Virus record (IMG/VR): IMGVR_UViG_3300047586_000100
Coordinates: 1-22,409 of that record
DNA from: a virus
Direction: 5' to 3' (one strand)
DNA: 22,409 nucleotides
Shown: in pieces, positions 1,381 to 21,997 of the stretch
Position numbering within the stretch: position 1 is the stretch's first letter
Layout of the letters: each line of letters starts with the position of its first letter
Position numbers and translations under genes: made by a program
The notes under the pieces: model-generated
The model's input: only the letters and a program-made list of their open reading frames with translations
Told to the model about the DNA's origin: nothing
Database searches by the model: none

Positions 1381-4300
1381 TTAGTATCCAGTCTCCACTA
1401 GAGCGTAGTAGCGAAATGTCCATGCCACGACGGTTCCTGAGATGGTAAGAGCGGACGCCCACATGCCTGTATGTCCAGACGACGGCATCCAGCATTCCGA
1501 TGAGTTGTACTGAAGTGCTGCCCCGTTTGCGTTGTTGAAGTTGAGGAAAGGCATTGTGGCAGAGTACCCAGATTGCTGCTGAAACCACAGAGATGCGGGC
1601 ACATATGTGAGTCCCGTCGACAGGTTGACTGTGTTCGTATTCTGTACTGGGGCCGTACCGTTGGCGGGGACCGTGATTGTACCCGTCGCCACGATCTTGA
1701 ATATGTCGCTCGTACCGTCGATGATGACGGTCGAGCCGGCGTTGGTGACGGTCAATTCGCCGTTGGTGATCGCGACGCCGGTCGAATCGATCGTCACATG
1801 GCCCGCGGCGTCGTAGGCGGCGGGGTAGAACTCGATCGCATCGAACGCGACCTGAGCAGTTGCAGTCGAAGTCGCCGGACTGTAGGGCCTCACCCGCGCG
1901 AAAGCCGCATCGCTCGGCGCGGCGACTCGGCCCGTCTCTTCAATCCAGGTCGCCGACGCCCCCACGTTGTAGTTCGTGAACACTGCAGTGTTGGCCGTGG
2001 CCGAGGCCGAGCCGTCTGCTTTGTACCACTGGATGTAGAGGCTCGCATACGCGGGTGAGGTGTTCAGGTAGTAGCCCCGGACCCAGGCCCGGACGCCGTA
2101 GATCTCTCCAGGGCTAACCGGGACCAGCGCCGAATAGACGGACATGGCCGCAGGCGTAGAACCCTGGATCAGCTGCATGCAATTGGCGCCCTGATAGGGC
2201 GAACCCTGCCACACCCTGATGGTGCTTCCGGCCGGATGAACGACGAGCTCCCAACCGGGCACGGCCGCTGCCAGTAGCGCGTTGGTGGAAAGGTCCGCGC
2301 CTATCGAGCCGACGTAGTTCTCGAAACTGCCGTTGGGACAGGTGTTCCGGTTGATCCCGACCGAGAGCTGAGTCGCGCCGATTGCGCCGGCGGCGATCTG
2401 GGCGGCCGTGATGGTGTTGGCAGCGATCTGCGAGGCCGTGATGGTGCCGGCCACCATCCGGTCACCCGTGATCGTGCCCGCCGTGATGTCCGCCCCGTCG
2501 GTGGCCTTGACCCAGACGTTCGCGACGTTGCGGTAGAGTTTGCCGTCAGTCGTAAGGAAGACCACGAAGCCGATGGGATACGCAGCGTTGGGCAGGCCCG
2601 GCAGCGAGCCGACCGGTGGGATGCCGGAAAAGCCCACGGGCAGGCTCTGATTGATGGCGTTAACCCAGGACCCGCTGAGGTTCTGGTAGAGCTTATGGTC
2701 GGTCGTGAGGATGGCGTAGGAGTCCGCCGGATAGTTCGTATCCGGCAGGCCGGGGAGGGCGGAGACGATCACGACAGGCCGAACCCACGGGGCGAACGGC
2801 TCTATGCCGACGGTGCCAGTGCCGATCTTCTTACCGACGACGGATCGCGGCGGCGGGGCCGAGTAGGCCCAGAGCGGGATGAGCCCGCCGAACTGGATGT
2901 CGTAGGCCTTCGTGTTGCCGCCGGCGAAGTAGTAGCGGGTGACGAGGTTGATGCGGAAGTAGGTGTCCGTCCAGATGTCGAAGTGGGCCGCATACCTGAT
3001 GTCGAGGATCTGCCCGGGCTTCCAGCCGTTCGCCCCGGTGATGTGGACCTGGCCCTGGAGCGAGGGCCAGGCGTTGGTGTCGAGGAGCGCGTTGCCGACG
3101 GCCTGGGCCATCGCCCAGGTGGTGGCGTTCGGCGCGTCGTAATACGCTTCGCGCCGGCCGTAGGCTGTGATGCTGCCAGAATTCGTGACCCAGCCGCTGC
3201 CGGCCGCGTTCGCGCCTCGCATGTAGTAGGCGTTGACGAGCGACTTGCTGTCGCGGGTGATGGTGAACGGTTCCTCGGGGTTGACCTCGCCGCCAGCGGG
3301 GGTCCGGGTATCGAGCGCGAACGGCGCTGTGTCTGCCGTGGAGTTCGTGACGTGAAGCAGGCCCGCGCCGTCGGACCAGTAGTACCAGCCGGTGCCGGCC
3401 AGTGAGCAGGTCATCTCGATTGCGCCGCGCAGGGTCGTGTTTTCCAGCAGGCAGGCCGGGAGCGAAGGCCCCGGGTTGACGATGTACGTCCAGATCTGGG
3501 GCATCAACGGCCCGTAGGTCGAGAGGAGATAGACCATCCGGGCATAGAGCGTCTCGGCCGGCCGCGACTCGGAGGGCACGAGGGAGAGGTCGAGGATCTC
3601 GCCGAGGTCGTCGCACGTCAGCTGGAACGACCGACCGTTGCCCAGGGTATCGAGCTGGGCCGGGTTGAGGTAGCCCGTGAAGACGAAGCGGCCGTCGTTG
3701 TTGTCCCAGAGCTGCGTCAGGGCTTTGGGGGCGAGTCCCAGGCTGATGGTCGAGTCCAGCACGGTGCAGTTGAGCTGCCCAGGCTGGCGGCAGCCGGACT
3801 CCACGACGACATAGGAAGACAGGTCCGTGAGGCCCGTGATGTCCAGGCCCCCGACCCAGAGGGTGAGCGGCGAGGGGCCGAGGCTGGCGGAGGCCCAAAG
3901 GGCGGCGCGCTGTGTGGCTTTAAGCCATGTAGCCCATACCGCAATCTCGTCGAGCGACCCGTTGAAGTAGTTGCCGGTGGTCCAGCACTGGGCGACATCG
4001 AGGACCGAGGTATTGGTGAGATTGCGGGTCGACTCGCTGGAGATGTTAACGGGTGAACCGCTGATCGCGCCGTCGATGTACCAGACGCCGTTGCCGCCGC
4101 GGTCCATGACGAGCAGGGCGTGATGCCAGGCCCCATCCGCCAAACCCGAGGCGCTGGTGACGATCAGCGCGCCAATCGGGGTGCGAAGCTGCCCCGCCGT
4201 GTCCATATAGGCTCCCCAGCCGTTAGAGCCGTCGCCGCGGTACAGGATGAACTCGGGAGCCGTCGGATTGCCGCTGCGCTTGAAGAGGAAGCTCAGGCTG

Positions 4301-4557
4301 TAGTTGCCGGTTCCGAAGTTGTAGGCGGCGTTGGACGTGGCTTCCATGTACTCGGAGGACGCCGAGGCGAAACCTGCCGCGGTGTCCGAGTCGTTGACCA
4401 AGGGGCCGGCTATCCCGAGAGCCGGGGTGTTGTAGTAGATCCCGTTATTCGCGATCGGTGAGATGTCATGAGCGACGGTGCCCGACGGCTCCCCGAGGCG
4501 GTAGTAGGCAACCAGGTTCGGGATGTTGAGGACGACCAGATCGTAGGGGGCGGTCAT
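1381..4557 (-). CDS. Tail hub / receptor-binding protein with LamG and CBM-like domains
   Basis: The 1058-residue protein starts in an ATGA overlap with the tape measure stop. Residues ~10-225 form a LamG/concanavalin-type lectin domain (GAWHHALLVMDRGGNGVWYIDG, then FNGSLDEIAVW). Residues ~230-570 look like a phage tail hub (LTLWVGGLDITGL, FVFTGYLNPAQL, LTCDDLGEILDL). Residues 598-634 and 649-685 are two copies of one module (LPGLP..YP..LTTD.KLY.N..W). Residues ~690-733 repeat AGTIT/AxQIAA, as in trimeric fibre connectors. Residues ~740-912 resemble a CBM4/9-type carbohydrate-binding fold (CPNGSFE to VAFDAIEFYP). The last ~130 residues form a beta-rich tip. It likely docks under the tail tube and binds surface glycans. 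No separate distal tail protein is visible. DNA coding for the last ~80 residues is about 54% GC by my count, clearly below the rest. Confidence 0.85.
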   Translation of the reverse strand: MTAPYDLVVLNIPNLVAYYRLGEPSGTVAHDISPIANNGIYYNTPALGIAGPLVNDSDTAAGFASASSEYMEATSNAAYNFGTGNYSLSFLFKRSGNPTAPEFILYRGDGSNGWGAYMDTAGQLRTPIGALIVTSASGLADGAWHHALLVMDRGGNGVWYIDGAISGSPVNISSESTRNLTNTSVLDVAQCWTTGNYFNGSLDEIAVWATWLKATQRAALWASASLGPSPLTLWVGGLDITGLTDLSSYVVVESGCRQPGQLNCTVLDSTISLGLAPKALTQLWDNNDGRFVFTGYLNPAQLDTLGNGRSFQLTCDDLGEILDLSLVPSESRPAETLYARMVYLLSTYGPLMPQIWTYIVNPGPSLPACLLENTTLRGAIEMTCSLAGTGWYYWSDGAGLLHVTNSTADTAPFALDTRTPAGGEVNPEEPFTITRDSKSLVNAYYMRGANAAGSGWVTNSGSITAYGRREAYYDAPNATTWAMAQAVGNALLDTNAWPSLQGQVHITGANGWKPGQILDIRYAAHFDIWTDTYFRINLVTRYYFAGGNTKAYDIQFGGLIPLWAYSAPPPRSVVGKKIGTGTVGIEPFAPWVRPVVIVSALPGLPDTNYPADSYAILTTDHKLYQNLSGSWVNAINQSLPVGFSGIPPVGSLPGLPNAAYPIGFVVFLTTDGKLYRNVANVWVKATDGADITAGTITGDRMVAGTITASQIAANTITAAQIAAGAIGATQLSVGINRNTCPNGSFENYVGSIGADLSTNALLAAAVPGWELVVHPAGSTIRVWQGSPYQGANCMQLIQGSTPAAMSVYSALVPVSPGEIYGVRAWVRGYYLNTSPAYASLYIQWYKADGSASATANTAVFTNYNVGASATWIEETGRVAAPSDAAFARVRPYSPATSTATAQVAFDAIEFYPAAYDAAGHVTIDSTGVAITNGELTVTNAGSTVIIDGTSDIFKIVATGTITVPANGTAPVQNTNTVNLSTGLTYVPASLWFQQQSGYSATMPFLNFNNANGAALQYNSSECWMPSSGHTGMWASALTISGTVVAWTFRYYALVETGY

Positions 4558-6743
4558 GAGCTGGCTACCAGGCCGCGGGTGACGGCCGGCATCAGGCGGC
4601 CTATGGCTTCGTTCACAATCTGGCCCAGGATCCGCTTGTCGACCATGATCTGGAGGGTGGTAGCGCCGGTCCCGGCGCCCGCTGCCGAGACCCCCCCGGG
4701 TATGCCGAACTGGCGCATCTTGCTCTCGGGGATGACGTATTCGCGCTCGCCGCCCTCACCGAGCCAAGCGAGAGTCGGCTTGCTTACGCTGCCGCCTTCG
4801 GCGAAGTGCGGCAGGTGGTCGAGCGGGTTGAAGTCGATGTGGCTGATGTTGTCCATCAGCGTCTGAAGACTGTGGAGCGGGTCGAGCATGTCCCGGAAGA
4901 GGTCCGTGATGGTGCCGATGGGCTCGAAGAGGCCGTGGAGGGCGTCGCCGCCCCGCTTCGCCCAGTAAGCGAGACCGCCGGTGTCGTTCAGGTAGCCGTT
5001 CAGCCATCCCAGGAGGGGCAGGATGGGATAGAGCATCGAAGCGAGACCGCCCACCGGGGAGAGCTTCTCATTGAGCCACTGGAGCGGTTGGAGGACAAAC
5101 GTGTTGATGATGCCGCCCGTCACCCCGACGGCGCCCGCGAGCCCACCCATGGCGCCCAGGAGCTGCGCAAGGGCCACTCTGAGGTCCGCGCCTGCCTTGA
5201 CCCCCGCATCCCGGGCGCTGGTGGCGTTCGTGGTGAAATCTTTGAGGGCGCCGGCCATGGTGGTGTTCAGGCCGGTGAACGTAGAGCCGACGATGGGCGC
5301 AATGGCCCCGACGCCGGCCGTGATGCCGCCATTCACGGCCTGGTGGGCGGCCAGGAGATCGGCCAGATGCTGCTTCTCCGCGTTAAGCTCGGCGAGCTGG
5401 GCCGCTTCGTCCTGCTTCTTCTTCCAGTCCGTGAGGCTGACTTCAGTGGTCTGGACCTTGTCCTTGGCCGCGAGGATGTCGGCCTCGCGCTTCTGCTGGG
5501 CCTTGATCTGCTCGGCGGCACTGAGGCCGTAGGTGTCGACGGAGGACGCCTGGAGGTTCGCGAGCTCGGTCTTCGCGTCGGTGATCGCCTTTTCGAGGTC
5601 GGCCTGCTGCTGCTGAGCCTGCTCCGTGGCCTGGAGATCCTTGAGCGCGGCGATCTGGGCGCTGATGGCCGCGGTCTGCGCCTTGATCGACTCGGCATAG
5701 GGGTCCTTTGCCGATCCGCCGCCCCCCCCGCCGCCAGCCGCCGGCGCGGCGCCGACTGTGCCGGGTGCTGGCCTGTTAACGGGAGCGGGCGCGCTGGATT
5801 CGCCGCCTGGTCCACCGGCCGGTCCGCCGGCCGCCCCGCCGAAGTCGACTCCAAAGATGCCGCCGATCACGCCCATGACGAAGTTGGCCACGGACACGGC
5901 GTACGCCACGATGTCGTTGAGGTGGGCCTCGACATAGGCGCCGAAAGAGGTCACGAACCCCTCGAGCGTCGGCTCGAGCCCGGCGAAGATCGAGGTCTGG
6001 ATCCCGGTGACGATGTTGCCGAGATTGCCCATCTCGATCCCGAAGCGGTGGGCGGCATCGGTCGTGCTCTGGTCCAGGACCATGCCGGCGTTGCCCGCGT
6101 CGATCGTGAGCTGCCGCATCTGCGCATCGGTCAGGTTCAGGAAGTCGAGCATCGTGTAGCCGGTGCGGCTGAAGAGCTCCTGCGCCGCTGCCGTCTTCGC
6201 GAGCGAGTCTCCCTGCGAGGAGAACGCCTGCTGCAGATTGCGGATGATCGTGTAGGTGTCGAGGAATTGCCCGTTCGCGTCGCGGGTCGCGATGCCCAGA
6301 TTGGTGAACAGCTTCTCGTGGGTATCGAGGTTCTTGCCGAACATCGCGAAGAGGCGGTCCGCGGTGCCCATGTCCACGCCGAGCTCGCGCATGATCGCGG
6401 CGAGAGAGCTGGTCTGCTCCGCCGTCATGCCGGTTTCGATCTGCAGCTGGTAGATCTGCTGGGCCCAGGCGTAGCCCGCCTCGACGGCCTGGGGGATGGC
6501 ATCGACGATGCGGCCGATCGCGTTGGTCAGGTCGTTGAAGAGCGAGATGCCGATGCCGATGCCGATGCCCTGGGCGATCGACCCGAATGCCGACAGCGCG
6601 CCCGACAGCTTGCCGGTCTTGGTCGCGCTCTCCTCGGCGGTGCCGCCCAACTGGGTGATGAGGCCATGGACGGACTTCAGGGTCGCGGTTGCCTCATCGA
6701 CCGCCCGGACGATGATCTGGAGCTGTTCGTCGTTGCTACCCAT
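4554..6743 (-). CDS. Tape measure protein
   Basis: The 729-residue protein sets tail length and is threaded through the tail tube in siphoviruses. It begins MGSNDEQLQIIVRAVDEATA, a usual tape-measure opening. A hydrophobic Gly/Ile-rich stretch follows near residues 50-75, then a helical region. A poly-Gly linker lies near residue 340, followed by a long Ala/Gln/Glu coiled coil (~350-465). A second hydrophobic region lies near 540-590. The C-terminal motif HFAEGGSVSKP...GEGGEREYVIPE (about 646-672) is the signature found near the end of many tape measure proteins. The start has GGAGG ten bases upstream and lies 6 bases past the chaperone stop. By the usual ~1.5 angstrom per residue rule, the tail would be about 110 nm; this is inference. 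Confidence 0.93.
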   Translation of the reverse strand: MGSNDEQLQIIVRAVDEATATLKSVHGLITQLGGTAEESATKTGKLSGALSAFGSIAQGIGIGIGISLFNDLTNAIGRIVDAIPQAVEAGYAWAQQIYQLQIETGMTAEQTSSLAAIMRELGVDMGTADRLFAMFGKNLDTHEKLFTNLGIATRDANGQFLDTYTIIRNLQQAFSSQGDSLAKTAAAQELFSRTGYTMLDFLNLTDAQMRQLTIDAGNAGMVLDQSTTDAAHRFGIEMGNLGNIVTGIQTSIFAGLEPTLEGFVTSFGAYVEAHLNDIVAYAVSVANFVMGVIGGIFGVDFGGAAGGPAGGPGGESSAPAPVNRPAPGTVGAAPAAGGGGGGGSAKDPYAESIKAQTAAISAQIAALKDLQATEQAQQQQADLEKAITDAKTELANLQASSVDTYGLSAAEQIKAQQKREADILAAKDKVQTTEVSLTDWKKKQDEAAQLAELNAEKQHLADLLAAHQAVNGGITAGVGAIAPIVGSTFTGLNTTMAGALKDFTTNATSARDAGVKAGADLRVALAQLLGAMGGLAGAVGVTGGIINTFVLQPLQWLNEKLSPVGGLASMLYPILPLLGWLNGYLNDTGGLAYWAKRGGDALHGLFEPIGTITDLFRDMLDPLHSLQTLMDNISHIDFNPLDHLPHFAEGGSVSKPTLAWLGEGGEREYVIPESKMRQFGIPGGVSAAGAGTGATTLQIMVDKRILGQIVNEAIGRLMPAVTRGLVASS

Positions 6744-6749
6744 GCCAGA

Positions 6750-7405
6750 TCAGCCTCCAGGGGAGTTGAGAGATGAGGTCGCCCGAGCGGAGTCGGCCAT
6801 GAAGGTGCGGATGGCACGGACGTACAGCACGATCCGCTCGGGGGTGCGCTGGAGCTCGTCGTAGGAGCGCCAGGCATCGGGGAAGACGAGGTTGCCGAAG
6901 CCGTCACCGTGCGCGTTGGCGCAGAGGAGGTAGGCAGCCCGAAAAGAGCCGCTGGCCGTGGCCTGGTGGGCGAAGACGTGGGCTACTTCGCCCTCAACAG
7001 ATTTGGGCTCGGGAGGCCCTCGCGGATCCGTAGCACGCCGTTCCAGATCGGCGTGATCTTGGTCGCCTGGCTGACGGTCCGGAGCACGGCGAGGGCTTCT
7101 GGCGTCGGCTTGAGGTCCGGACCACGCCGCAGGCTGACGGGGGGCCCACCATCCCGCGGGGTCACGGCGCCGTCTTCGATCAAGGCGACGATCGAGGCGT
7201 TCATCACCTCGGACATGGCGGCGGGGCGATTCTGCGCGAGGATCATGAAGGCGTCGAGCAGCTCATCCGCCTGGTAGTGCATGGGATCGATGGCGAGCTT
7301 CACCCAATCGCCGTCGGCGAACCGGATGACGCCGTCCTTGTCCATCGCAGGATCGGGAGCGGGGGCCGGCTTTGCGGCCGGCCCCGTTGCCTTGCGCTGG
7401 CTCAC
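6750..7405 (-). CDS. Tail assembly chaperone, long form by -1 frameshift (gpGT-like)
   Basis: This is the extended product made when ribosomes slip at CCCAAAT (7007-7001). The first 135 residues are those of the short form. Reading then continues in the -1 frame for 83 codons (SVEGEVAHVFAHQATA... to ...SSLNSPGG) and stops at TGA 6752-6750, giving 218 residues. The downstream frame has strong G/C third positions and no start codon of its own near the overlap, so it fits no independent gene. Placement between the major tail protein and the tape measure is the hallmark of lambda G/GT-type chaperones, which hold the tape measure during tube assembly. The family is inferred from layout and frameshift, not from sequence similarity that I can verify. 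Confidence 0.82.
6968..7007 (-). promoter_or_regulatory. Programmed -1 ribosomal frameshift site with stem-loop
   Basis: On the minus strand the heptamer C CCA AAT (7007-7001) matches X XXY YYZ in the zero frame. A 7-base spacer (7000-6994) follows, then GGGCGAAG (6993-6986), a 10-base loop holding the zero-frame TAG stop, and the perfect partner arm CTTCGCCC (6975-6968). The loop contains AGCCC, which can pair with GGGCT at 6940-6936, so a pseudoknot is possible. Slip site, spacer length and stem together form a standard stimulator of -1 frameshifting. Confidence 0.85.
6983..7405 (-). CDS. Tail assembly chaperone, short form (gpG-like)
   Basis: The 140-residue short form starts at a GTG that overlaps the TGA of the major tail protein (GTGA), which implies coupled translation. 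No Shine-Dalgarno is visible. An ATG at 7345 would shorten it by 20 residues. After a Pro/Ala-rich leader it reads DGVIRFADGDWVKLAIDPM and then a helical core (LLDAFMILAQNRPAAMSEVMN, trimmed here to its features: helical, amphipathic). It ends at TAG 6985-6983, which lies in the loop of the frameshift hairpin. The longer ORF extending up to 8371 in this frame is only a shadow over the major tail gene. Short forms are normally made in excess over the frameshifted form. Confidence 0.82.
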   Translation of the reverse strand: MSQRKATGPAAKPAPAPDPAMDKDGVIRFADGDWVKLAIDPMHYQADELLDAFMILAQNRPAAMSEVMNASIVALIEDGAVTPRDGGPPVSLRRGPDLKPTPEALAVLRTVSQATKITPIWNGVLRIREGLPSPNLLRAK

Positions 7406-8385
7406 GGCAGAATCGTCAGGCCGTTCGCGATGGCAATCGAGAACGGGGCGGCGGCCGTGGGATCGAACGTGGCTTGGCCCGTCGACTTGACCATCCAGAG
7501 ATCGCTGGCCACCTGGAGCGAGCTGTCGGTGAAGTAGCCGTACCAGTCGAGCGTCGCGCTCTTGGGAGTCGTCGGCGAGGAGCCCGCGATCGTCGAGCCG
7601 GTGACCGCGACGCGCACCTTGCGGTAGGTGTTGGCCTGGAAGGCAAGCAGGTTGGCCGTGGAGTCGAAGAACGTGGTGGTGATCAGCTTGGCACTGTAGA
7701 TCTTTGGCACCGCGAGGGCCGGATACAGGTTCCCGTCGCCGATCCAGAGCCACGTCCACGGGAGCTGGATCTCCAGCTGCGCGTCGGTCATCTTGGCCGC
7801 TGTGGCGCCGATGGTCGTGGTGTCGATGAAGCCCGTGAAGAGCGAGCCGTTGATCTCTTCCCAAACGACCGGGGTCAGGGCTCCGGTGAACGCCTGAGCG
7901 ACGAAGTTCTGGGCCGTCACGTCGATGTCGAGCGTTGCCGCCTTGTCGGCGTAGAGGCCGAGGGTCAGCTTGGAGATCAGCGCGCCGCCGATCTGGTAGG
8001 CCGCGGTGTCGTTGCCGAGTTCGAGCGTGTAGCTCTTGCGGTCGTCGGTCGTGCCGGTTGGCGCGAAGGTGTAGGTGTAGACCGACGTGTTGGTCATCGT
8101 GCCCGTCACGCCGCCCTTGATTCCGCCCAGGAGCCACCAGGGCAGACTCTCGAACGTCGGCCGGAGCTTGATTCCGGGGATGTCGACGTTGTACTTGCCG
8201 GTGATGGGCGGGTCGAAGAGCGGATGCAGCGAGGCCCGCTGACTTGCCCGCTGGATCTTGTCGTACTTCCAGACCGGCATCACCGGGGTCAGCAGATCGG
8301 CACAGACGCGCGTCGCGGCGATGGGTGTGTATCGAGTCGCCTCGACCACGCCCTGGAGTTTGGTGGTCCATGCGGCACCAGGCAT
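7402..8385 (-). CDS. Major tail (tube) protein
   Basis: The 327-residue protein precedes the tail chaperone and tape measure, the fixed position of the tube subunit in siphoviruses. It opens MPGAAWTTKLQGVVEATRYT and is beta-rich throughout, with repeated Thr/Val/Gly strands (VTGTMTNTSVYTYTFAPTG; YTLELGNDTAAYQIGGALI). I assign it by position and composition; it resembles phage tube or virion proteins of about 300 residues. The start codon has AAGGAG nine bases upstream, embedded in the last codons of the preceding gene. A GC-rich hairpin 44 bases before the start (8429-8448) may affect its expression. The end overlaps the chaperone GTG. Confidence 0.85.
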   Translation of the reverse strand: MPGAAWTTKLQGVVEATRYTPIAATRVCADLLTPVMPVWKYDKIQRASQRASLHPLFDPPITGKYNVDIPGIKLRPTFESLPWWLLGGIKGGVTGTMTNTSVYTYTFAPTGTTDDRKSYTLELGNDTAAYQIGGALISKLTLGLYADKAATLDIDVTAQNFVAQAFTGALTPVVWEEINGSLFTGFIDTTTIGATAAKMTDAQLEIQLPWTWLWIGDGNLYPALAVPKIYSAKLITTTFFDSTANLLAFQANTYRKVRVAVTGSTIAGSSPTTPKSATLDWYGYFTDSSLQVASDLWMVKSTGQATFDPTAAAPFSIAIANGLTILP

Positions 8386-11631: not shown

Positions 11632-12921
11632 TTAGCTGTGCTGGGTCAGGCGGGCGAACGCCTCGGCCAGGACCGGCATGCCATCGGTCTCCTTGCGACC
11701 GATGAAGCCGACCTGGTTGGTCTCGGCGTACAGCTCGACGAGCCGCTGGACGGTGACGTCGAGGGCGTCGGCGATCCAGTAGAAGCTGAAGTCGCCGCAG
11801 ATGCCGGTGTACAGGTTGGCGGTCACCGTATTGGGCACGTACTCCGACATGAAGTACGGCTTGCCCAGGATGGTGTCCGGCTGGCCCGCCGCGAGGCTCG
11901 CCTGGCCGATGGCACCGGCCGCCCAGACGTACTGGCCGTTGGTGTCCTTGACCTTGCGGATGACCTGGACGACGGTCCGGTTGAAGCCCCAGCGCGCCGT
12001 CTGCTGGTACTGCGGCTTGAGGCTGTAGAGGACGTTGATCAGGTCGTCGGCGACGATGGCCGTGGCGCCTGCGGTGAGCACGTCGCGCGAGGTCGGGATG
12101 CCGTCGGCCGAGGCCGTGAACAGCCCGAGCGGCTGCTGCGCGCCCGTGCCGGTCATGAAGCTCTTCTCTTCGGCGACTCCGAACTTGTACCCGAGTCGGG
12201 CCAGGACCAGGTCGTCGACCGTTGAGCCGTTGGCCGCGCCGCCGGCATCACGCGATGCCACCCGGAACGCCGTGGCGGCCCGGAGCAGCTTCGCGCTGAC
12301 CTTGATGCGCTTGGCCAGCGGGTGCGGGCGGAACTCGCGCTTGCCGAAAGCCATCGCGGAGTCTTCGTTGCCGGTCCCGAGCTCGACCGTCCAGTCGGCG
12401 TCGTCGGGATCGGCGGTCAGGGACGGGACGCCCAGGGACTGGGCATTCTCGACCCGGGCGACCGTTGCCAGGCCTCGGATGAAGACCTGGTTGTCGACGA
12501 ACTTGATGAGCTGGTCGCTGAATTCCTGCGGCGCGACGACGAAACCGCCCGAGGTGTCAGTGTCCATCGCCAGGGCGCGGAGCTCGGCCGACTGGCCGTT
12601 CCCGCGGAGGTACTGGCTGAACGCCTTGCGGTACTCCGGGGTGGCGTTGGCCCGCATTTCGCGGTTCTCGCCGTCGCCGGCCCCCGGGTTGGCGCGCGGG
12701 GTCTCGGGATGGAGCGGCTGCGCAAGCTGGGCCTCGCGCTTCGCGTTGCGCTCTTCGCGGTCGATCTGGGCGCCGAGCGAGTCGAACTCGTTCTCAAGGC
12801 CGTCGTACCGCGGCTTCTCTTCTGCACTGAGGTCGCGGCCAGCGGCCTCAGCCACGCCGAGCATGTCCTTCATCTCGCCGACGATGGCCGCTCGGCGTTC
12901 TCGCTTTTCACGGAGGTTCAC
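11632..12921 (-). CDS. HK97-fold major capsid protein
   Basis: The 429-residue protein opens with a charged coiled coil (NLREKRERRAAIVGEMKDML, to about residue 75) that corresponds to the delta/scaffold domain removed by the prohead protease. The mature part begins near MRANATPEYRKAFSQYLRGN. It contains TSGGFVVAPQEFSDQLIKFV, the usual entry to the HK97 shell fold, and later TILGKPYFMSEYVPN and FSFYWIADALDVTVQRLVEL, typical of the family. I chose GTG 12921 because AGAAGGAG lies eight bases upstream. The ATG at 12942 has no ribosome site and sits right behind the hairpin at 12946-12969. It follows the protease gene, as in HK97. Confidence 0.93.
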   Translation of the reverse strand: MNLREKRERRAAIVGEMKDMLGVAEAAGRDLSAEEKPRYDGLENEFDSLGAQIDREERNAKREAQLAQPLHPETPRANPGAGDGENREMRANATPEYRKAFSQYLRGNGQSAELRALAMDTDTSGGFVVAPQEFSDQLIKFVDNQVFIRGLATVARVENAQSLGVPSLTADPDDADWTVELGTGNEDSAMAFGKREFRPHPLAKRIKVSAKLLRAATAFRVASRDAGGAANGSTVDDLVLARLGYKFGVAEEKSFMTGTGAQQPLGLFTASADGIPTSRDVLTAGATAIVADDLINVLYSLKPQYQQTARWGFNRTVVQVIRKVKDTNGQYVWAAGAIGQASLAAGQPDTILGKPYFMSEYVPNTVTANLYTGICGDFSFYWIADALDVTVQRLVELYAETNQVGFIGRKETDGMPVLAEAFARLTQHS

Positions 12922-12945
12922 GGTGGATCTCCTTCTGGGCATACC

Positions 12946-12969
12946 AAAAGACCCGGATCGCTCCGGGCC
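12946..12969 (-). terminator. Terminator-like hairpin between protease and capsid genes
   Basis: On the minus strand, GGCCCGGA pairs with TCCGGGTC (one G-U pair) around a GCGA tetraloop and is followed at once by TTTT and then GG. It lies in the gap between the protease stop (12996) and the capsid start (12921). Because the capsid must be expressed, it probably gives partial termination, or protects the 5' end of a processed capsid message. Confidence 0.72.
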
Positions 12970-12995
12970 TCTGAGTTGCCGCTGGTGGGGTTGGG

Positions 12996-13742
12996 CTAGA
13001 TGGTTGCCTCGCGCTCCCGCAGGGTCAGAAGCCGCCGCCTGATCGCTATGAGTCCGCTCGCCTGAACGGTCTCGGGATCGGGAGCGCCAGACTCGCCTGA
13101 GTCCGCTGCCCTGTTGAGAACGTCGATCGAGTCGATCACGAGCTGGCGGTCGCGTTCATTCACATGCCATACGGCCGGGCGCTCGGAGATCGCGATGTGA
13201 TGGGCCAGGGCATCGAAGTCGAGCCCTGCGTTGGTAAGAACGGCCCGCGCCTCCAGGCGCGTCTGGGGGTAGGCCGGGAAGGTCACGGGGCTGACGTCGA
13301 ACAACTCGCGGAAGGCGATGATCGTCCGGAGCAGCGTGCCGTCCGGCATCGTCGACCACTCGTCCTTGTCGATCCAGAAGCCGAACGACGCCTGATTGAC
13401 GTCGCCGCGGCGCATCGGGGTCAGGACCATGTCGCGGATCAGCTGCGTATCCGGCGGGTTGATGCTCGTCCCCAGGCCGCGGTCGTCCTCTACCACGGTC
13501 ACCGTGCCAGACGACTGGCGGCCCAGGACGAAGTCCGGGTTGTGGTTCCAGAGCGCCCGAACGTCGCTCGCCGCCAGGGCGAGCAAGAACGATCCCGGCT
13601 TGATGATCTCGCGGAAGCCGCCGAGATCCTCGGAGAGCTGATCGAAGACTGCAGCGTGCCCGTCAATGACGGGGGGCGCACCGTCACCGACGTCTCGGAC
13701 CTCGATCCGATCGAAGGCGTAGTCGCGTTGTTCTCGAAGCAT
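12996..13742 (-). CDS. Prohead (maturation) protease, HK97 family
   Basis: The 248-residue protein fits the caudoviral prohead protease family, a herpesvirus-assemblin-like serine protease that cleaves scaffold from the capsid. The opening strands lead to IDGHAAVFDQ and the FREIIKPGSF motif typical of the family. The likely catalytic His is in LWNHNPDFVLGR (His67) and the likely Ser is in NQASFGF (Ser119). The pre-catalytic strand AFRELFDVSPVTFPAYPQT is also characteristic. The C-terminal ~60 residues are helical and charged with a short disordered break (DSGESGAPDPE). A TAGGAGG ribosome site precedes the ATG. The gene follows portal by 8 bases and precedes the capsid. Confidence 0.92.
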   Translation of the reverse strand: MLREQRDYAFDRIEVRDVGDGAPPVIDGHAAVFDQLSEDLGGFREIIKPGSFLLALAASDVRALWNHNPDFVLGRQSSGTVTVVEDDRGLGTSINPPDTQLIRDMVLTPMRRGDVNQASFGFWIDKDEWSTMPDGTLLRTIIAFRELFDVSPVTFPAYPQTRLEARAVLTNAGLDFDALAHHIAISERPAVWHVNERDRQLVIDSIDVLNRAADSGESGAPDPETVQASGLIAIRRRLLTLREREATI

Positions 13743-13750
13743 ATGGCCTC

Positions 13751-15808
13751 CTACCGGGCAGGGGCGAGATCGCAGATGCAGCGATCGTGGATCGGAGCGT
13801 GATGGACGTTGGACTCGGGGACCAGCGGCTCGTCTGCGCCGTCGGCCTCGAATGGCTGGCCCTTGGCCAGGAAGGGCTCGTCGATGGCGCGCACCTGCCC
13901 ATGCAGCGCCGTGCAGTAGGGGCAGGAGTCACGAGCGACCCAGGACACGTTTCGGATCCCGGAGCCGCGCCAGGCTTGGCGCGTGATCGCCCCGGCGGCG
14001 CGCGTTGACTCGTCGGCAGCCTGTGAGGCCGGCCGCCAGCTGGCCCAGTCGTCGAATTGTGCCTGGAGAGCCTCGACCGGGTCCGCTGCGGTCGTCGCAG
14101 CGTCGGCCATGACGCCCGCCAGCGCGCCGCGCGAGCGACGGCACCAGCCGGCGCTGGCATCGGTGAGATAGCCCGTGAGCATCGAGCGGACGCCATCGGT
14201 GACGTCGGGCGCCTGGGCGTTGATCTCGTCGGCGGCGTCCGCGCCGATCGCGTCGCCGTAGCTGTCCAGGGCCGGCCGGAGAGCCCGCGCGACATAGTCG
14301 CCGTGGCTGTCCGCCGCGTAGAAGGCGTCGAGCCAGTCGCCGAAGTCACCGGCGCCGCGGGAGCCGAACGACTTGCGCGCCTGGCGCATGACGTCGGCCT
14401 CTTCGCGCCGAAGAGAGCGGCCGTAGGCGTCCGCGAAGAGCGGGCGGTAGGCGTCGCGGAGGCGGCCGCGGGCCACGGCGTTCCGCGCGGAACGCTGCGA
14501 GCGGCCGCCGTTCGGGTTGACCTGGTCGCCTGGCTCCTTGGGCTGCGGCGGAGTTCCGGAGCCGACATCGACGCTGTCGACCGGGACGTAGTTCAGCGGC
14601 ACGAAGTACCTGGTGCCCTGGTCGCCTGGGAGTGGATTCTCGTCCTCGTCCTCGAGGGCATCGTTCGCATTTTTGGCCCCCATCTGCCAGGCAACCTGGT
14701 GGGTCTCCCAACGCGTCTTGTCATCGCCGCGGAGGAGGGCCGCCATCTGGTGCCGCGTGAAGTAGCGGCCGGTGCCCGGCAGGAGATCCTTGTCGGCCTG
14801 CTTCTCCCAGCGGACGCACCAGGGCCGCATGGTGAACTTGGTGTAGTCGAGCGACTCGGTCGCGCTGGTGCTCCCCGTTTCCTTGGTGAGCTCGGCGAGC
14901 ATGTGCGGCGGCATCCGGAACATCCGGGCCACTTCGTTGAGCTGGAAGGTCCGGGTCTGGAGGAACTGCGCGTCCTCGGGCGGGACGCCGACCTCAGTGA
15001 CTGACAGCCCCTCCTCGAGCACGGCCACCCGCTGGGCATTCGTGAGGCCCTTGTGACGGTCTTCCCAGTCCTCGCGCAGATCTGCCTTCGCAGTCTTGGA
15101 CAGATGGCCGGGGTGCGTCAGAACGACGCCAGGGCGGGCGTCGTTGCCAAAGAAGCGACCGCCGAACTCCTCGGTCGCCATGGCCAAGCCGACCGCCTCA
15201 CGTGCCAGGTGGATCGGCGAGTAACCCAGGATGCCGTCCGAGCCGAAGCCGCGAACGTGGAAGATCCGGTAGGCCGCGAAGTCCTTGATCTGGCCGCCGG
15301 GCAGGGTGTAGCGGTAGACGAGCTCGCCGGGTTTCGCCTGGCCGTCTGTGATCGCCACGTCGACGCCGTTGCGCATGACGCGCATCTTGTCCGGGCGCAG
15401 GGGCCAGAGCGCCCGCGGCCGCATACCCTGGTCCCAATCGATCTCGGCATAGCAGTTGCCGCGCAGCAGAAGGTGGCCCTGGAGCGCTTCCTTCCAGCTG
15501 ACCGAGTCCATCTCCGGATTCGGCGTCTCGAGCAGCAGGTTGTAGATCGGCAACTCGTCTGCCTGGCGCTTGCCGCGCGGTTTGAGCTGCTCGTACGTGT
15601 ACATCGGCAGCGTCGCGATGTCTTCGGAGATGTTCCGCACCGCCGCGAAGATCGCGGCAACGCCGAGCGCGTTCTCGGGTGTGACGCGGATCCCCGACGC
15701 GGTCAGATCGCCACCGCCGAAGAGCTTCTCGACCCAGTAGGCGGGCGTGCGTGGGTTGCTGACTTCGAGGCGCCAGCCGCGGGTCGCTGCTCGAGCGAAG
15801 ATGCCCAT
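13751..15808 (-). CDS. Portal protein fused to MuF-like minor head domain
   Basis: The first ~430 residues are an HK97-type portal (SGIRVTPENALGVAAIFAAV; ISEDIATLPMYTYEQL; FRMPPHMLAELTKETGSTSA), forming the DNA-translocation ring at one vertex. Residues from ~440 onward, after a Pro/Asn/Gly linker, are a helical domain ending in the MuF/SPP1 gp7-type cysteine-histidine motif: SCPYCTALHGQV, then HHAPIHDRCICD. In most phages this minor head protein is a separate gene next to portal; here both are one 685-residue chain. The ATG at 15808 has GGAGG nine bases upstream and overlaps the stop of the small membrane-protein gene by one base. The coding region includes an 18-bp palindrome at 14478-14495. 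Confidence 0.9.
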   Translation of the reverse strand: MGIFARAATRGWRLEVSNPRTPAYWVEKLFGGGDLTASGIRVTPENALGVAAIFAAVRNISEDIATLPMYTYEQLKPRGKRQADELPIYNLLLETPNPEMDSVSWKEALQGHLLLRGNCYAEIDWDQGMRPRALWPLRPDKMRVMRNGVDVAITDGQAKPGELVYRYTLPGGQIKDFAAYRIFHVRGFGSDGILGYSPIHLAREAVGLAMATEEFGGRFFGNDARPGVVLTHPGHLSKTAKADLREDWEDRHKGLTNAQRVAVLEEGLSVTEVGVPPEDAQFLQTRTFQLNEVARMFRMPPHMLAELTKETGSTSATESLDYTKFTMRPWCVRWEKQADKDLLPGTGRYFTRHQMAALLRGDDKTRWETHQVAWQMGAKNANDALEDEDENPLPGDQGTRYFVPLNYVPVDSVDVGSGTPPQPKEPGDQVNPNGGRSQRSARNAVARGRLRDAYRPLFADAYGRSLRREEADVMRQARKSFGSRGAGDFGDWLDAFYAADSHGDYVARALRPALDSYGDAIGADAADEINAQAPDVTDGVRSMLTGYLTDASAGWCRRSRGALAGVMADAATTAADPVEALQAQFDDWASWRPASQAADESTRAAGAITRQAWRGSGIRNVSWVARDSCPYCTALHGQVRAIDEPFLAKGQPFEADGADEPLVPESNVHHAPIHDRCICDLAPAR

Positions 15809-16017
15809 CAGCGCTTGCCTCCGTCATCGGTGGCGGCCCGCGAGGCCGAAACAAGGTAGGCGCCGACCAGCAGCCAGGGCAGCGCGGGATGGAACATGTT
15901 GAAGCCGACCGCGAGGCAGGCCACGCCCGCAAGGGCGAGCAGGTCAGGGATGCCGGTTCCTATGCGATGCGCGCCAGCCTTGCGGAGGCGCGCGATTGCC
16001 CGGCGGAGCCGAGCCAC
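15808..16017 (-). CDS. Small membrane protein in head module, 69 residues
   Basis: The start is a GTG three bases past the preceding stop and the end overlaps portal by one base (TGATG), so the gene is tightly embedded in the operon. An Arg/Lys-rich N-terminus (MARLRRAIARLRKAGAHRIG) precedes two close hydrophobic segments (LLALAGVACLAVGF and LPWLLVGAYLVSA), which suggests a hairpin in the membrane. The family is unknown to me. Membrane proteins between terminase and portal are unusual as virion parts, so anchoring assembly to the membrane or a late host-directed role are options. Coding is supported by the overlaps and codon bias. Confidence 0.65.
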   Translation of the reverse strand: MARLRRAIARLRKAGAHRIGTGIPDLLALAGVACLAVGFNMFHPALPWLLVGAYLVSASRAATDDGGKR

Positions 16018-16019
16018 GA

Positions 16020-16433
16020 CTACAGCTCGATGCCGTAGAAAAAGCCACTGATTGTTTCGGTCGAGACGCCCTGTGCCGTCAGGACGTTGTTCGCGGCGGC
16101 CGAGATGATGCCCGCCCCTAGCGGAACCGGGAGCGGCTGGCCCACGGGGGTGGCGGGGATCGTCAAGATCGTGGCGCCGGCTGTGTTGTCGCGGAGGGTG
16201 ATGTTGCCCGTGGCGACGCCCTGCGTGATGACGAAGCCCAGGAGACAGAACTTCTTGCCGGAGGTCGGGGTCCAGACGGTCGTCTCGTTTGTGATGACCG
16301 TCGCGGCGACCGACTTGAACACGTTGGCGCTCGGGCCGGCGTTGACGACCTCGGCGACCGTGCCGTCGCCCATATCCCTGTAGCGCTTCTTGTTTCCGGC
16401 GCCACCAATCGAGATGAGTTCGTCACCAGCCAT
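16020..16433 (-). CDS. Putative head decoration / beta-rich virion protein
   Basis: The 137-residue protein starts at an ATG with a strong ribosome site (AGGAG, 6 bases). After a polar N-terminus (ISIGGAGNKKRYRDMGDGT) it is a run of beta strands (KFCLLGFVITQGVATGNITL; ATILTIPATPVGQPLPVPLG) ending TISGFFYGIEL. There is no signal peptide or membrane segment. Such proteins occur beside portal genes in phages and are thought to be capsid decorations or spikes, but I assign no named family. It stands between large terminase and portal, where a structural gene of this type is less usual than after the capsid. Confidence 0.65.
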   Translation of the reverse strand: MAGDELISIGGAGNKKRYRDMGDGTVAEVVNAGPSANVFKSVAATVITNETTVWTPTSGKKFCLLGFVITQGVATGNITLRDNTAGATILTIPATPVGQPLPVPLGAGIISAAANNVLTAQGVSTETISGFFYGIEL

Positions 16434-16446
16434 GGTCGTCTCCTAG

Positions 16447-18045
16447 CTAGAAGGTGAAGAGGTGCTCGGTTTCGTAGATCGAGACCGTGGACGGGACGAC
16501 CGGGGCGATGGCCCACGCGTGGTAGGCACCGATCGAGCCGGCGATCGCGTCGTCGATGTGCTTGTTGCGAGCGCCACGGGGCTTCGTCAGCCGCCACGCG
16601 CGGTCGCTGATGTCCTTCTTGACGGCCGAGCCGATCTGCAAGGCGAAATCCGGATCGTCCCCGTGCTCGATCGTGCCGCCTACGATCAGGTCGTAGTAGG
16701 TCATGCAGGCTGGTCCCATGCGCGAGTCCGTCTGGGGGACCTCGATCATGTTCAGACCCTTGCCCCGCAGGATCTCGGCGCTCCGGTCGAAGCGCCAGGG
16801 GTCGTAGTAGTAAGCCGGGCCCGGTGCCATCTCGTCTGAGTCCGGCATCTGCGCGGCTGGCGCCGGGAAGAGCTCGAACAGCTCGAGCAAGTAGTTCTCG
16901 ATCGTCGCCAGATCGATCCGCCATTGATCGTGCCGCGGGTCATCGAGCGGGTAGGGGTTCATCCAGTTCTTGACGACCTGGCGGAGCTTCTCGCCGCGCT
17001 GCTGGTTGAGCATCACCGCAGTCGAGTCGTGAGTTCGCGCCGCATCGATCGCGACGTGAAGCGGTAGGTCCGGGTCCAGATCGTCGATCGTCAGCACCCG
17101 GTTGACCGAGCAGGCACCCCAAGCACCTGGCGGCAGCCAGGCCTCTTCGCTCTCGGTCCATTGGTTCAGGAAGTAGCGGCGGTAGACGTTCTCGGTCTTC
17201 TTGCCGAGCATATCGAGGTAGAACTCGGCCTGGACGCTGACCCCGAAGTTGGGGTTTGCGGCCTTGATGACCTTGAGGTCGCGGTAGTCGCAGCCCTCCG
17301 GGGCTTCGACGATGTAGGCGAAGTAGTGCGGGTCGATCAGCGTGCCCGCCAGGATCCGCTTCGCCATCTCATACTGGCGGCCGCAGATCGTCTCCTTGTT
17401 GCTGCCGGCGGTCGTGATCTGGATGATCATCGGCTGCTCGCGGGCGCCGATCCCGTTGGTCAGGATGTCCCAGACCTGCTCGCCCTTGCCGACCCACTCG
17501 TGGAGCTCGTCGATCAAGACCGCGCTGAGGTTCTTGCCGTCGTTCGTCCCGGCCGCCGCGGCCACCCGGAACATCTTCGCGCCGGGCCGGCTCGGGACCA
17601 GGATCTCGCGCTCGTAGACCTGAGCCACCGCCGACAATGGTCCGAGCGTGACCATCATCACGGCGCTGCCGAAGAGCAGGTCGGCCTGTTCGTCGCTCGC
17701 CGCGGCGCATGCGATCTTCGGGCTCGGCTCTTCGTCCGCGATCAGCAGGTAGAGTCCGATCGCCGCGATGAGGGTCGTCTTGCCCTGTTTCTTCGGGATG
17801 CTGATGTAGGCCCAGCGGATCAGCCGCTTGCCCGTGGTCGGGTCGAGCGCGAACAGCCCCAGGATGAGGAGCTTCTGCCAGACCTCGAGCAGCAGCGGCC
17901 GGCCGATCAGCGGACCGTCCGGGTGGACGCAGTTCGCTTCGATCCAGCGGATGACGCGCATCCCGCGCGTCGGCTTTGGTTCAGGCTTCGGCGTAGTCCG
18001 TGCCGATGCCGAGCTCGTCTTCTTCTTGCGACTTGCCGTTGGCAT
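16447..18045 (-). CDS. terL: Terminase large subunit
   Basis: The 532-residue packaging motor has an N-terminal ATPase and a C-terminal RNase H-like nuclease. The Walker A-like motif is PKKQGKT (84-90), Walker B is VLIDE (176-180) and the coupling motif is ITTAG (210-214). Nuclease acidic residues are visible in HVAIDAARTHD (Asp334, Asp340) and near HIDDAI (Asp498/499). The N-terminus WIEANCVHPDGPLIGRPLLL is typical of terminases of P27-type systems. The ATG at 18045 lies 65 bases inside the small subunit gene; the first 28 residues are low complexity. An alternative ATG at 17961, after the small subunit stop, would remove only these residues, so the start is uncertain. Confidence 0.95.
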   Translation of the reverse strand: MPTASRKKKTSSASARTTPKPEPKPTRGMRVIRWIEANCVHPDGPLIGRPLLLEVWQKLLILGLFALDPTTGKRLIRWAYISIPKKQGKTTLIAAIGLYLLIADEEPSPKIACAAASDEQADLLFGSAVMMVTLGPLSAVAQVYEREILVPSRPGAKMFRVAAAAGTNDGKNLSAVLIDELHEWVGKGEQVWDILTNGIGAREQPMIIQITTAGSNKETICGRQYEMAKRILAGTLIDPHYFAYIVEAPEGCDYRDLKVIKAANPNFGVSVQAEFYLDMLGKKTENVYRRYFLNQWTESEEAWLPPGAWGACSVNRVLTIDDLDPDLPLHVAIDAARTHDSTAVMLNQQRGEKLRQVVKNWMNPYPLDDPRHDQWRIDLATIENYLLELFELFPAPAAQMPDSDEMAPGPAYYYDPWRFDRSAEILRGKGLNMIEVPQTDSRMGPACMTYYDLIVGGTIEHGDDPDFALQIGSAVKKDISDRAWRLTKPRGARNKHIDDAIAGSIGAYHAWAIAPVVPSTVSIYETEHLFTF

Positions 18046-20947: not shown

Positions 20948-21997
20948 CTATCCCCACTTCGCGACGGGAGTCCCGCCGACGGTGCCTGTGATGACGAAAG
21001 TGGTGGGACCGGTTTGTAGCGGCGTGTAGTCGCCCGTCTTCGCACCGTTGAACATCTTGCCGAAGGCGACGAGATCGCCGGCGACGACCAGATACCAGAC
21101 GGCGTCGGGGCCGTTAGCCGTTCCAGATCCCACGACCGGCGTCGCGCCACGAGGAAGGATCGGGGTGAGCGTCCCGTCCTTCATTCGGAAAGCCTGGTGG
21201 TCCGAGGTGATGTTCAGCGAGCCGATGAGGTCGTAGGTTCCGGGTTGCATGTTGTCCTCCGGGATGGGCAGGACGCGGCCTGTCAGTGTTTGGAAGGCGT
21301 CGGCCAGGGCTGGCAGATCCATGCCCGCCATGAACTCCTTGGACTTGAGATGCTCGGGCAGGATGACGCCCCAGGTCCCGCCAACGTCGTGCGCCCAGAA
21401 CGCCTGGGTGAGGCCGTTCTCGCGGGTCCAGGTCTCCATCCGCACGTCGTCGGCCGCGGTGTCCCTGTGGCCGGCGGACAGGATCGAGTGGTAGCCCTTG
21501 ATCGGGGAGAGGGGGTGGTAGTCCCACGGCCTTCTCGCGTTGTAGTCGTCGTAGGTGGCGTCGCGCACGGTGACCGACGTCCAGACGAAGCCGAAGATCG
21601 AGATGGCGGCGTCGTGCTTGTCGAGGCTGACCGTGCCGAACGCCACGATGTCGCCGCGCTTCTGGAGGTACTCCAGGAGCGTCTGAATGTCCATGCCGTT
21701 GTCTTCGGCGGGGTAGTTGGGGTTCTGGGTCTTGTAGATCGCGACGATCTCGGCGTCGGTCAGGATGATCTCCCTGCCGCCCAGGATCGCCGAGACGAGG
21801 GCCTTGACGGCCGCCCAGGTGGCAGCGACGCACGTTCCCTTGAGGTTGTTGAGCCACCAGGGCCAGGTCGACCGGTAGCCCAGGTAATCGACCGGCGGCG
21901 TCGCCGGCAGGACTCCGGTGAAGAAGTCCGACAGGGTCAACGCAGGCTTGTTGATGGGCGGCCGACAGCCGAGCTTGGGAAGGATCGGGTCAGACAT
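20948..21997 (-). CDS. Papain-like cysteine peptidase, probable endolysin
   Basis: The 349-residue protein has a papain-type layout. The likely nucleophile is Cys56 in LKGTCVAATWAAVKAL, where a helix follows the Cys as in the C1 family. The likely His is His170 in KGYHSILSAGH, and a third-residue region lies in WTRENGLTQAFW (Asn194). No signal peptide is present. The C-terminal ~120 residues form a different beta-rich part (TYDLIGSLNITSDHQAFRM; VWYLVVAGDLVAFGKMFNG), possibly cell-wall binding. Next to a holin-like gene the best role is peptidoglycan peptide cleavage at lysis. A structural or host-directed protease is the alternative. AGAGGTGG precedes the ATG, which overlaps the HNH-like gene by 8 bases. 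Confidence 0.7.
   Translation of the reverse strand: MSDPILPKLGCRPPINKPALTLSDFFTGVLPATPPVDYLGYRSTWPWWLNNLKGTCVAATWAAVKALVSAILGGREIILTDAEIVAIYKTQNPNYPAEDNGMDIQTLLEYLQKRGDIVAFGTVSLDKHDAAISIFGFVWTSVTVRDATYDDYNARRPWDYHPLSPIKGYHSILSAGHRDTAADDVRMETWTRENGLTQAFWAHDVGGTWGVILPEHLKSKEFMAGMDLPALADAFQTLTGRVLPIPEDNMQPGTYDLIGSLNITSDHQAFRMKDGTLTPILPRGATPVVGSGTANGPDAVWYLVVAGDLVAFGKMFNGAKTGDYTPLQTGPTTFVITGTVGGTPVAKWG

Follow-up and report, generated by a model that had tools for sequence, protein, structure and literature searches.

How is the short interval between the tail tube gene and the tape measure gene of this viral genome decoded? In the window, i.e., the whole 22,409-nucleotide stretch of DNA that was analysed (IMG/VR record IMGVR_UViG_3300047586_000100, positions 1 to 22,409), a zero-frame gene, here called G, ends within an open reading frame in the -1 phase, here called T. 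The first-pass annotation had proposed that a -1 frameshift cassette at this place hides the second half of a tail chaperone. Judged from sequence, programmed -1 ribosomal frameshifting in a tail assembly chaperone gene of the lambda G/GT type, with a predicted G-T fusion as its product, is the reading that we favor, with a probability of about 95%. The relevant features are as follows.

7402..8385, minus strand: tail tube (major tail) protein, matching phrog_290, with Phage_tube_2 just below the Pfam cut-off
6983..7405, minus strand: gene G, zero frame, 140 aa, with codon usage like that of the other genes of the window
7001..7007, minus strand: slippery heptamer C_CCA_AAT in zero-frame phase, with a homologous site in 21 of 24 relatives
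6994..7000, minus strand: spacer CTGTTGA, 7 nt
6968..6993, minus strand: stem-loop with an 8-bp stem and a 10-nt loop
6750..7001, minus strand: T, the -1 frame extension, 83 codons plus the stop codon TGA (6752-6750), with the codon usage of a real gene
4554..6743, minus strand: tape measure protein, matching PHROG profiles (phrog_8462 and others)

Gene order and protein identity

The genes follow each other in the order tube, G, T, tape measure, with G and T located between the tube and tape measure genes. The GTG start codon of G at 7405 overlaps the stop codon of the tube gene, an alternative start being ATG at 7345, and its stop codon is the TAG at 6985-6983. At the other end, the Shine-Dalgarno sequence of the tape measure gene sits in the last codons of T. 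The G frame is also open upstream through the tube gene, giving a 462-aa ORF from ATG 8371 (6983-8371, minus strand), and a gene caller could choose this false ORF over the GTG start of G.

Neither G nor T gave a significant match in Pfam, PHROG or NCBIfam, and searches of the sequences of solved structures with T and G profiles revealed nothing credible. An AlphaFold model of G alone reached a pLDDT of 50, which is too poor for a fold search. Rfam and tRNA scans found nothing. The T protein of one relative matches phrog_9001, 'tail assembly chaperone', at E 0.004, and a profile comparison of the G and T of the window with those of the relatives was not significant. Since a significant match to a named family is lacking for both halves, the designation 'tail chaperone' given in the first-pass annotation rests on gene order and frameshift architecture, both of which agree with it, and G and T are therefore treated here as a putative chaperone pair. 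Elsewhere in the tail region, a 1058-aa tail protein (1381-4557, minus strand) contains a Laminin_G_3 (concanavalin-like) domain at residues 79-215 (E 3e-12), and this protein is a candidate for the receptor-binding part.

The slip site and coding in two frames

T is open for 83 codons, as was first annotated, and its TGA stop codon ends at 6750. The -1 frame is also open upstream of the slip site, to 7262, and the zero frame and the -1 frame overlap over 92 codons. T might be a separate gene with a start codon of its own, or be translated by termination and reinitiation at the stop codon of G, either of which would dispense with frameshifting; phage operons often show stop-start coupling. However, the -1 frame contains no ATG, GTG or TTG between 7262 and 6830, and the only nearby NTG codon, the CTG at 7046, is not preceded by a Shine-Dalgarno sequence. 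The first start codon in this frame is the GTG at 6830, the product of which would count only 26 aa. Thus, the earlier statement that T has no start of its own is borne out.

Read on the minus strand in the zero frame, the end of G is GGC CTC CCG AGC CCA AAT CTG TTG AGG GCG AAG TAG. The CCCAAAT in this segment (7007-7001) obeys the X_XXY_YYZ rule in the phase C CCA AAT and is the sole in-phase XXXYYYZ heptamer within the 92-codon overlap. It is followed by the 7-nt spacer CTGTTGA (7000-6994) and a perfect stem, in which GGGCGAAG (6993-6986) pairs with CTTCGCCC (6975-6968) through eight Watson-Crick base pairs. The loop comprises positions 6985-6976, and the zero-frame TAG (6985-6983) forms its first three bases. 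Slip site, spacer, stem and the position of the stop codon in the loop were all described correctly in the first-pass annotation, to the exact coordinate.

A further element had been suggested there, i.e., an H-type pseudoknot in which the loop sequence AGCCC pairs with GGGCT at 6940-6936 to complete the stimulator. The complementarity is present as described and amounts to -7.5 kcal/mol when calculated as a duplex. When the downstream sequence is shuffled, however, 18% of the shuffles yield a comparable 5-bp match, and the GGGCT is contained in a local 7-bp hairpin (6953-6933) of -10.6 kcal/mol. The pseudoknot is, hence, unsupported by these tests and appears rather unlikely, and the stimulator is taken here to be the simple stem-loop.

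At a GC content of 66.5%, as in this genome, long ORFs abound in all frames, and the openness of the -1 frame is therefore in itself weak evidence. The same holds for a single in-phase heptamer in an overlap this long: in codon shuffles, the probability of finding one such site in 92 codons was 0.44 for any XXXYYYZ and ~0.10 for sites of the A/T type. Codon usage, in contrast, provides strong evidence. With ten other genes as the training set of the model, G in frame 0 and T in frame -1 scored -5.30 and -5.48 bits per codon, respectively, as compared with -6.4 to -6.9 for the wrong frames. Both halves are, therefore, coding. If one change from frame 0 to frame -1 is allowed, its optimal position is ~6997, at most a few codons from the heptamer, with a gain of 81 bits over no switch. 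The significance of the site derives from this coincidence of the codon-usage switch with the heptamer and from the fact that relatives share it.

The tail module in Chloroflexota genomes

Close relatives of the tail module are absent from IMG/VR and the GenBank phages. Searches of IMG/VR with peptide patterns for the fusion, the tube and the tape measure protein found none, tblastn of the fusion and the tube against phage records gave no credible match, and the tape measure protein gave partial matches only. Similarly, the G-T fusion of one of the relatives described below had no match in phage records. Via the capsid, about 100 related loci could be found, but these carry different tail modules. 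One locus, L084, is located in a Chloroflexi metagenome-assembled genome, and a tube search of 400 genomes of its phylum gave matches up to E 2.8e-33. Further searches with the tube gene as bait, most of them with an alignment of six tubes (A4), added relatives. In total, 25 relatives were confirmed by the tube profile, 24 of which have enough downstream DNA to be evaluated, while L146 is incomplete. The phylum to which a Streptomyces locus belongs was represented by 296 genomes, and the tube profile found no match in these; although such an empty answer proves little, it makes a host among the Chloroflexota more likely.

The head module (11632-18045) and the tail module (4554-8385) of the window differ in their relatives. 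The capsid protein is at most 55% identical to proteins of IMG/VR contigs and 49% identical to that of Streptomyces phage Chymera, whilst relatives of the tube turned up in Chloroflexota genomes alone. The phage looks mosaic in its head and tail modules. Besides, a 349-aa protein (20948-21997, minus strand), a putative cysteine-peptidase-like protein, shares 47% identity over 243 aa with the product of an ORF located just upstream of the tube gene of one relative, L109. Its gene is virion-linked and lies at different places in the window and in L109.

An in-phase X_XXY_YYZ heptamer together with a -1 T frame is present after the tube and G genes in 21 of the 24 evaluable relatives; the architecture is, therefore, conserved. 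Their T frames count 58-170 codons, and the tape measure gene is visibly next in most of them. The first-pass annotation had named related phages without slip site and -1 open frame as an outcome that would speak against the cassette; such an outcome did not appear. Most of the heptamers, i.e., 15, are of the CCCAAAN class (nine CCCAAAC, five CCCAAAA and one CCCAAAG); two are CCCTTTN (one CCCTTTT and one CCCTTTA), and four are AAAAAAN (one AAAAAAC and three AAAAAAA, the latter in L139, L141 and L150). At the same place, loci with weaker similarity in the tube have A_AAA_AAC (L033) or a run of ten A (L084). The closest relative, L113, has AGC CCA AAC, followed by a perfect 8-bp stem (AGAGCCAG/CTGGCTCT) with the zero-frame TAG in the loop. 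With a codon-usage model trained on its own structural genes, the best switch in L113 lies 4 codons from the heptamer, and over L109-L113 this distance is 0-4 codons.

When 22 loci were subjected to a phase test, in-phase heptamers of the A/T type were found in all 22 overlaps, with ~2 expected from codon shuffles, while the other two phases contained such heptamers in only 3 and 2 loci; since these loci had been chosen for having a heptamer, the unbiased figure is the 21 of 24 given above. Perfect stems with a length of at least 6 bp that start +4 to +9 nt downstream were present at 11 of 22 sites; of 3300 control positions taken from these genomes, only 121 had one (3.7%; P about 8e-11). Similar stems were seen at 10 of the 21 relatives. 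In signals of the lambda type, a stimulatory structure of this sort is often present but is dispensable. The local folding z-score was -1.5 at the sites vs. -0.05 in the controls.

These data bear on two further explanations. Only one metagenomic virus record underlies the window, and one indel, introduced by sequencing or assembly or acquired as a recent frameshift mutation, would produce an identical picture from one ordinary gene. However, 21 of 24 independent genomes share both the split and a canonical heptamer, the stems are far above the controls, and the overlaps are in the expected phase only, so that the chance of an error is negligible and this reading is ruled out by the relatives. 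Alternatively, a fusion mRNA could be made by slippage of the polymerase on the DNA rather than of the ribosome on the mRNA. This is conceivable for relatives with A runs, i.e., the AAAAAAA of L139, L141 and L150 and the ten A of L084. The CCCAAAT of the window, however, contains no long homopolymer, CCCAAAN is the commonest site among the relatives, and the stems begin 4-9 nt downstream, as is expected of a ribosomal stimulator. Transcriptional slippage is, hence, hardly credible.

Three relatives deviate. L143 (G591:C47) has a -1 T frame, but the canonical heptamer is missing, and a TTG is located right after the stop codon of G, as would suit an independent start of T. Yet, if T generally had its own start, the junction heptamers and stems of 21 relatives would be left unexplained, and a separate gene for T is considered very improbable. 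Thus, both the independent start and transcriptional slippage were rejected on the evidence of start codons, heptamers and stems, and programmed frameshifting is retained as the explanation. L149 (G853:C100) contains a G-like ORF with no T before the tape measure gene. In L153 (G805:C641), T is in the +1 frame relative to G, and the junction reads TCC AAA AGC TGA, possibly reflecting a +1 slip on AAA_A or an assembly indel.

Proposed mechanism and comparison with known systems

In the proposed mechanism, most ribosomes would read G to the TAG at 6985 and produce the 140-aa protein. In a minority, the 8-bp stem located 7 nt downstream would slow translation whilst tRNA-Pro is on CCA and tRNA-Asn on AAU, and these ribosomes would slip back by one base, the tRNA-Pro re-pairing from CCA to CCC and the tRNA-Asn from AAU to AAA. 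They would then read 83 further codons, and G joined to T in this way is a 218-aa fusion. By analogy with lambda, many copies of G may coat the tape measure protein, while few copies of G-T recruit the tube subunits, and the slip rate would set the G:GT ratio. The sequence elements, the coding nature of both frames, the frame switch at the slip site and the conserved architecture are shown here, whereas the production of the fusion, its frequency and the role of the proteins as chaperones are inferred.

In E. coli, C_CCA_AAG is the best of all 64 heptamers, reaching 54% with a strong stimulator (PMC4066793). A heterogeneous A-site codon, e.g., AAY, lowers the efficiency in this host, AAU belonging to the low-efficiency class, and slip sites of low efficiency serve where only a small amount of fusion is required (PMC4066793). 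Because of these rules, a low fusion yield may be expected at C_CCA_AAT. Asparagine codons, AAC or AAU, are found as the second codon of the slip site in the window and in 10 of the 21 relatives. Possibly, Chloroflexota phages with this tail module favor Asn codons in the A site (C_CCA_AAC/-AAU), which would suggest that tRNA-Asn or the ribosome behaves in a lineage-specific manner, or that very low amounts of fusion have been selected, and L153 may have moved to +1; this suggestion is a tentative one.

Frameshifting of the lambda G/GT type is a well-known phenomenon. The conserved -1 frameshift of the tail genes of dsDNA phages was described earlier (Levin 1993; Xu, Hendrix and Duda 2004, reviewed in PMC5009743) and is retained despite low similarity of the G and T sequences between phages (PMC5009743). 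In lambda, the G-T frameshift occurs at a low level, resulting in gpG and gpGT at about 30:1, and the G part binds the tape measure protein whereas the T part binds the tube subunit (PMC5009743). The locus described here resembles gpG/gpGT in its position between the tube and tape measure genes, in a G that ends in a slippery heptamer, in a T that lies in the -1 frame without a start codon and, by inference for the window, in a G-T fusion that is the minority product. It differs from lambda in that its G and T do not significantly match known chaperone families and in the details of the signal, i.e., the C_CCA_AAU slip site with an 8-bp stem and the zero-frame stop codon in the loop. The g-t frameshift has also been reported in the haloarchaeal tailed viruses HCTV-1, -2 and -5 (PMC5009743), which have archaeal hosts and in which X in the slip site is G or A, whereas it is C in the window. 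Streptomyces phage Chymera (NC_073457) has a related head module (capsid 49%, portal 37%) and, likewise, two small ORFs between the major tail protein and the tape measure gene. Its tail module is a different one, however, and gp15 and gp16 have no recognisable similarity to the G and T of the window. What is new is the set of proteins and the phage group, and perhaps also the prevalence of C_CCA_AAN with Asn codons in that group.

For the annotation of this genome, the finding supplies the missing C-terminal half of a protein, T being a frame that automatic annotation would drop. As G and T match no profile library and only the architecture identifies them, the frameshift signal is useful as an annotation tool. 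A ready set with which the slip rules can be tested outside E. coli is formed by the recurrent C_CCA_AAN sites. Thus, the tail-chaperone frameshift is extended to a nearly unsampled group of phages, represented by prophage-like loci in Chloroflexota genomes.
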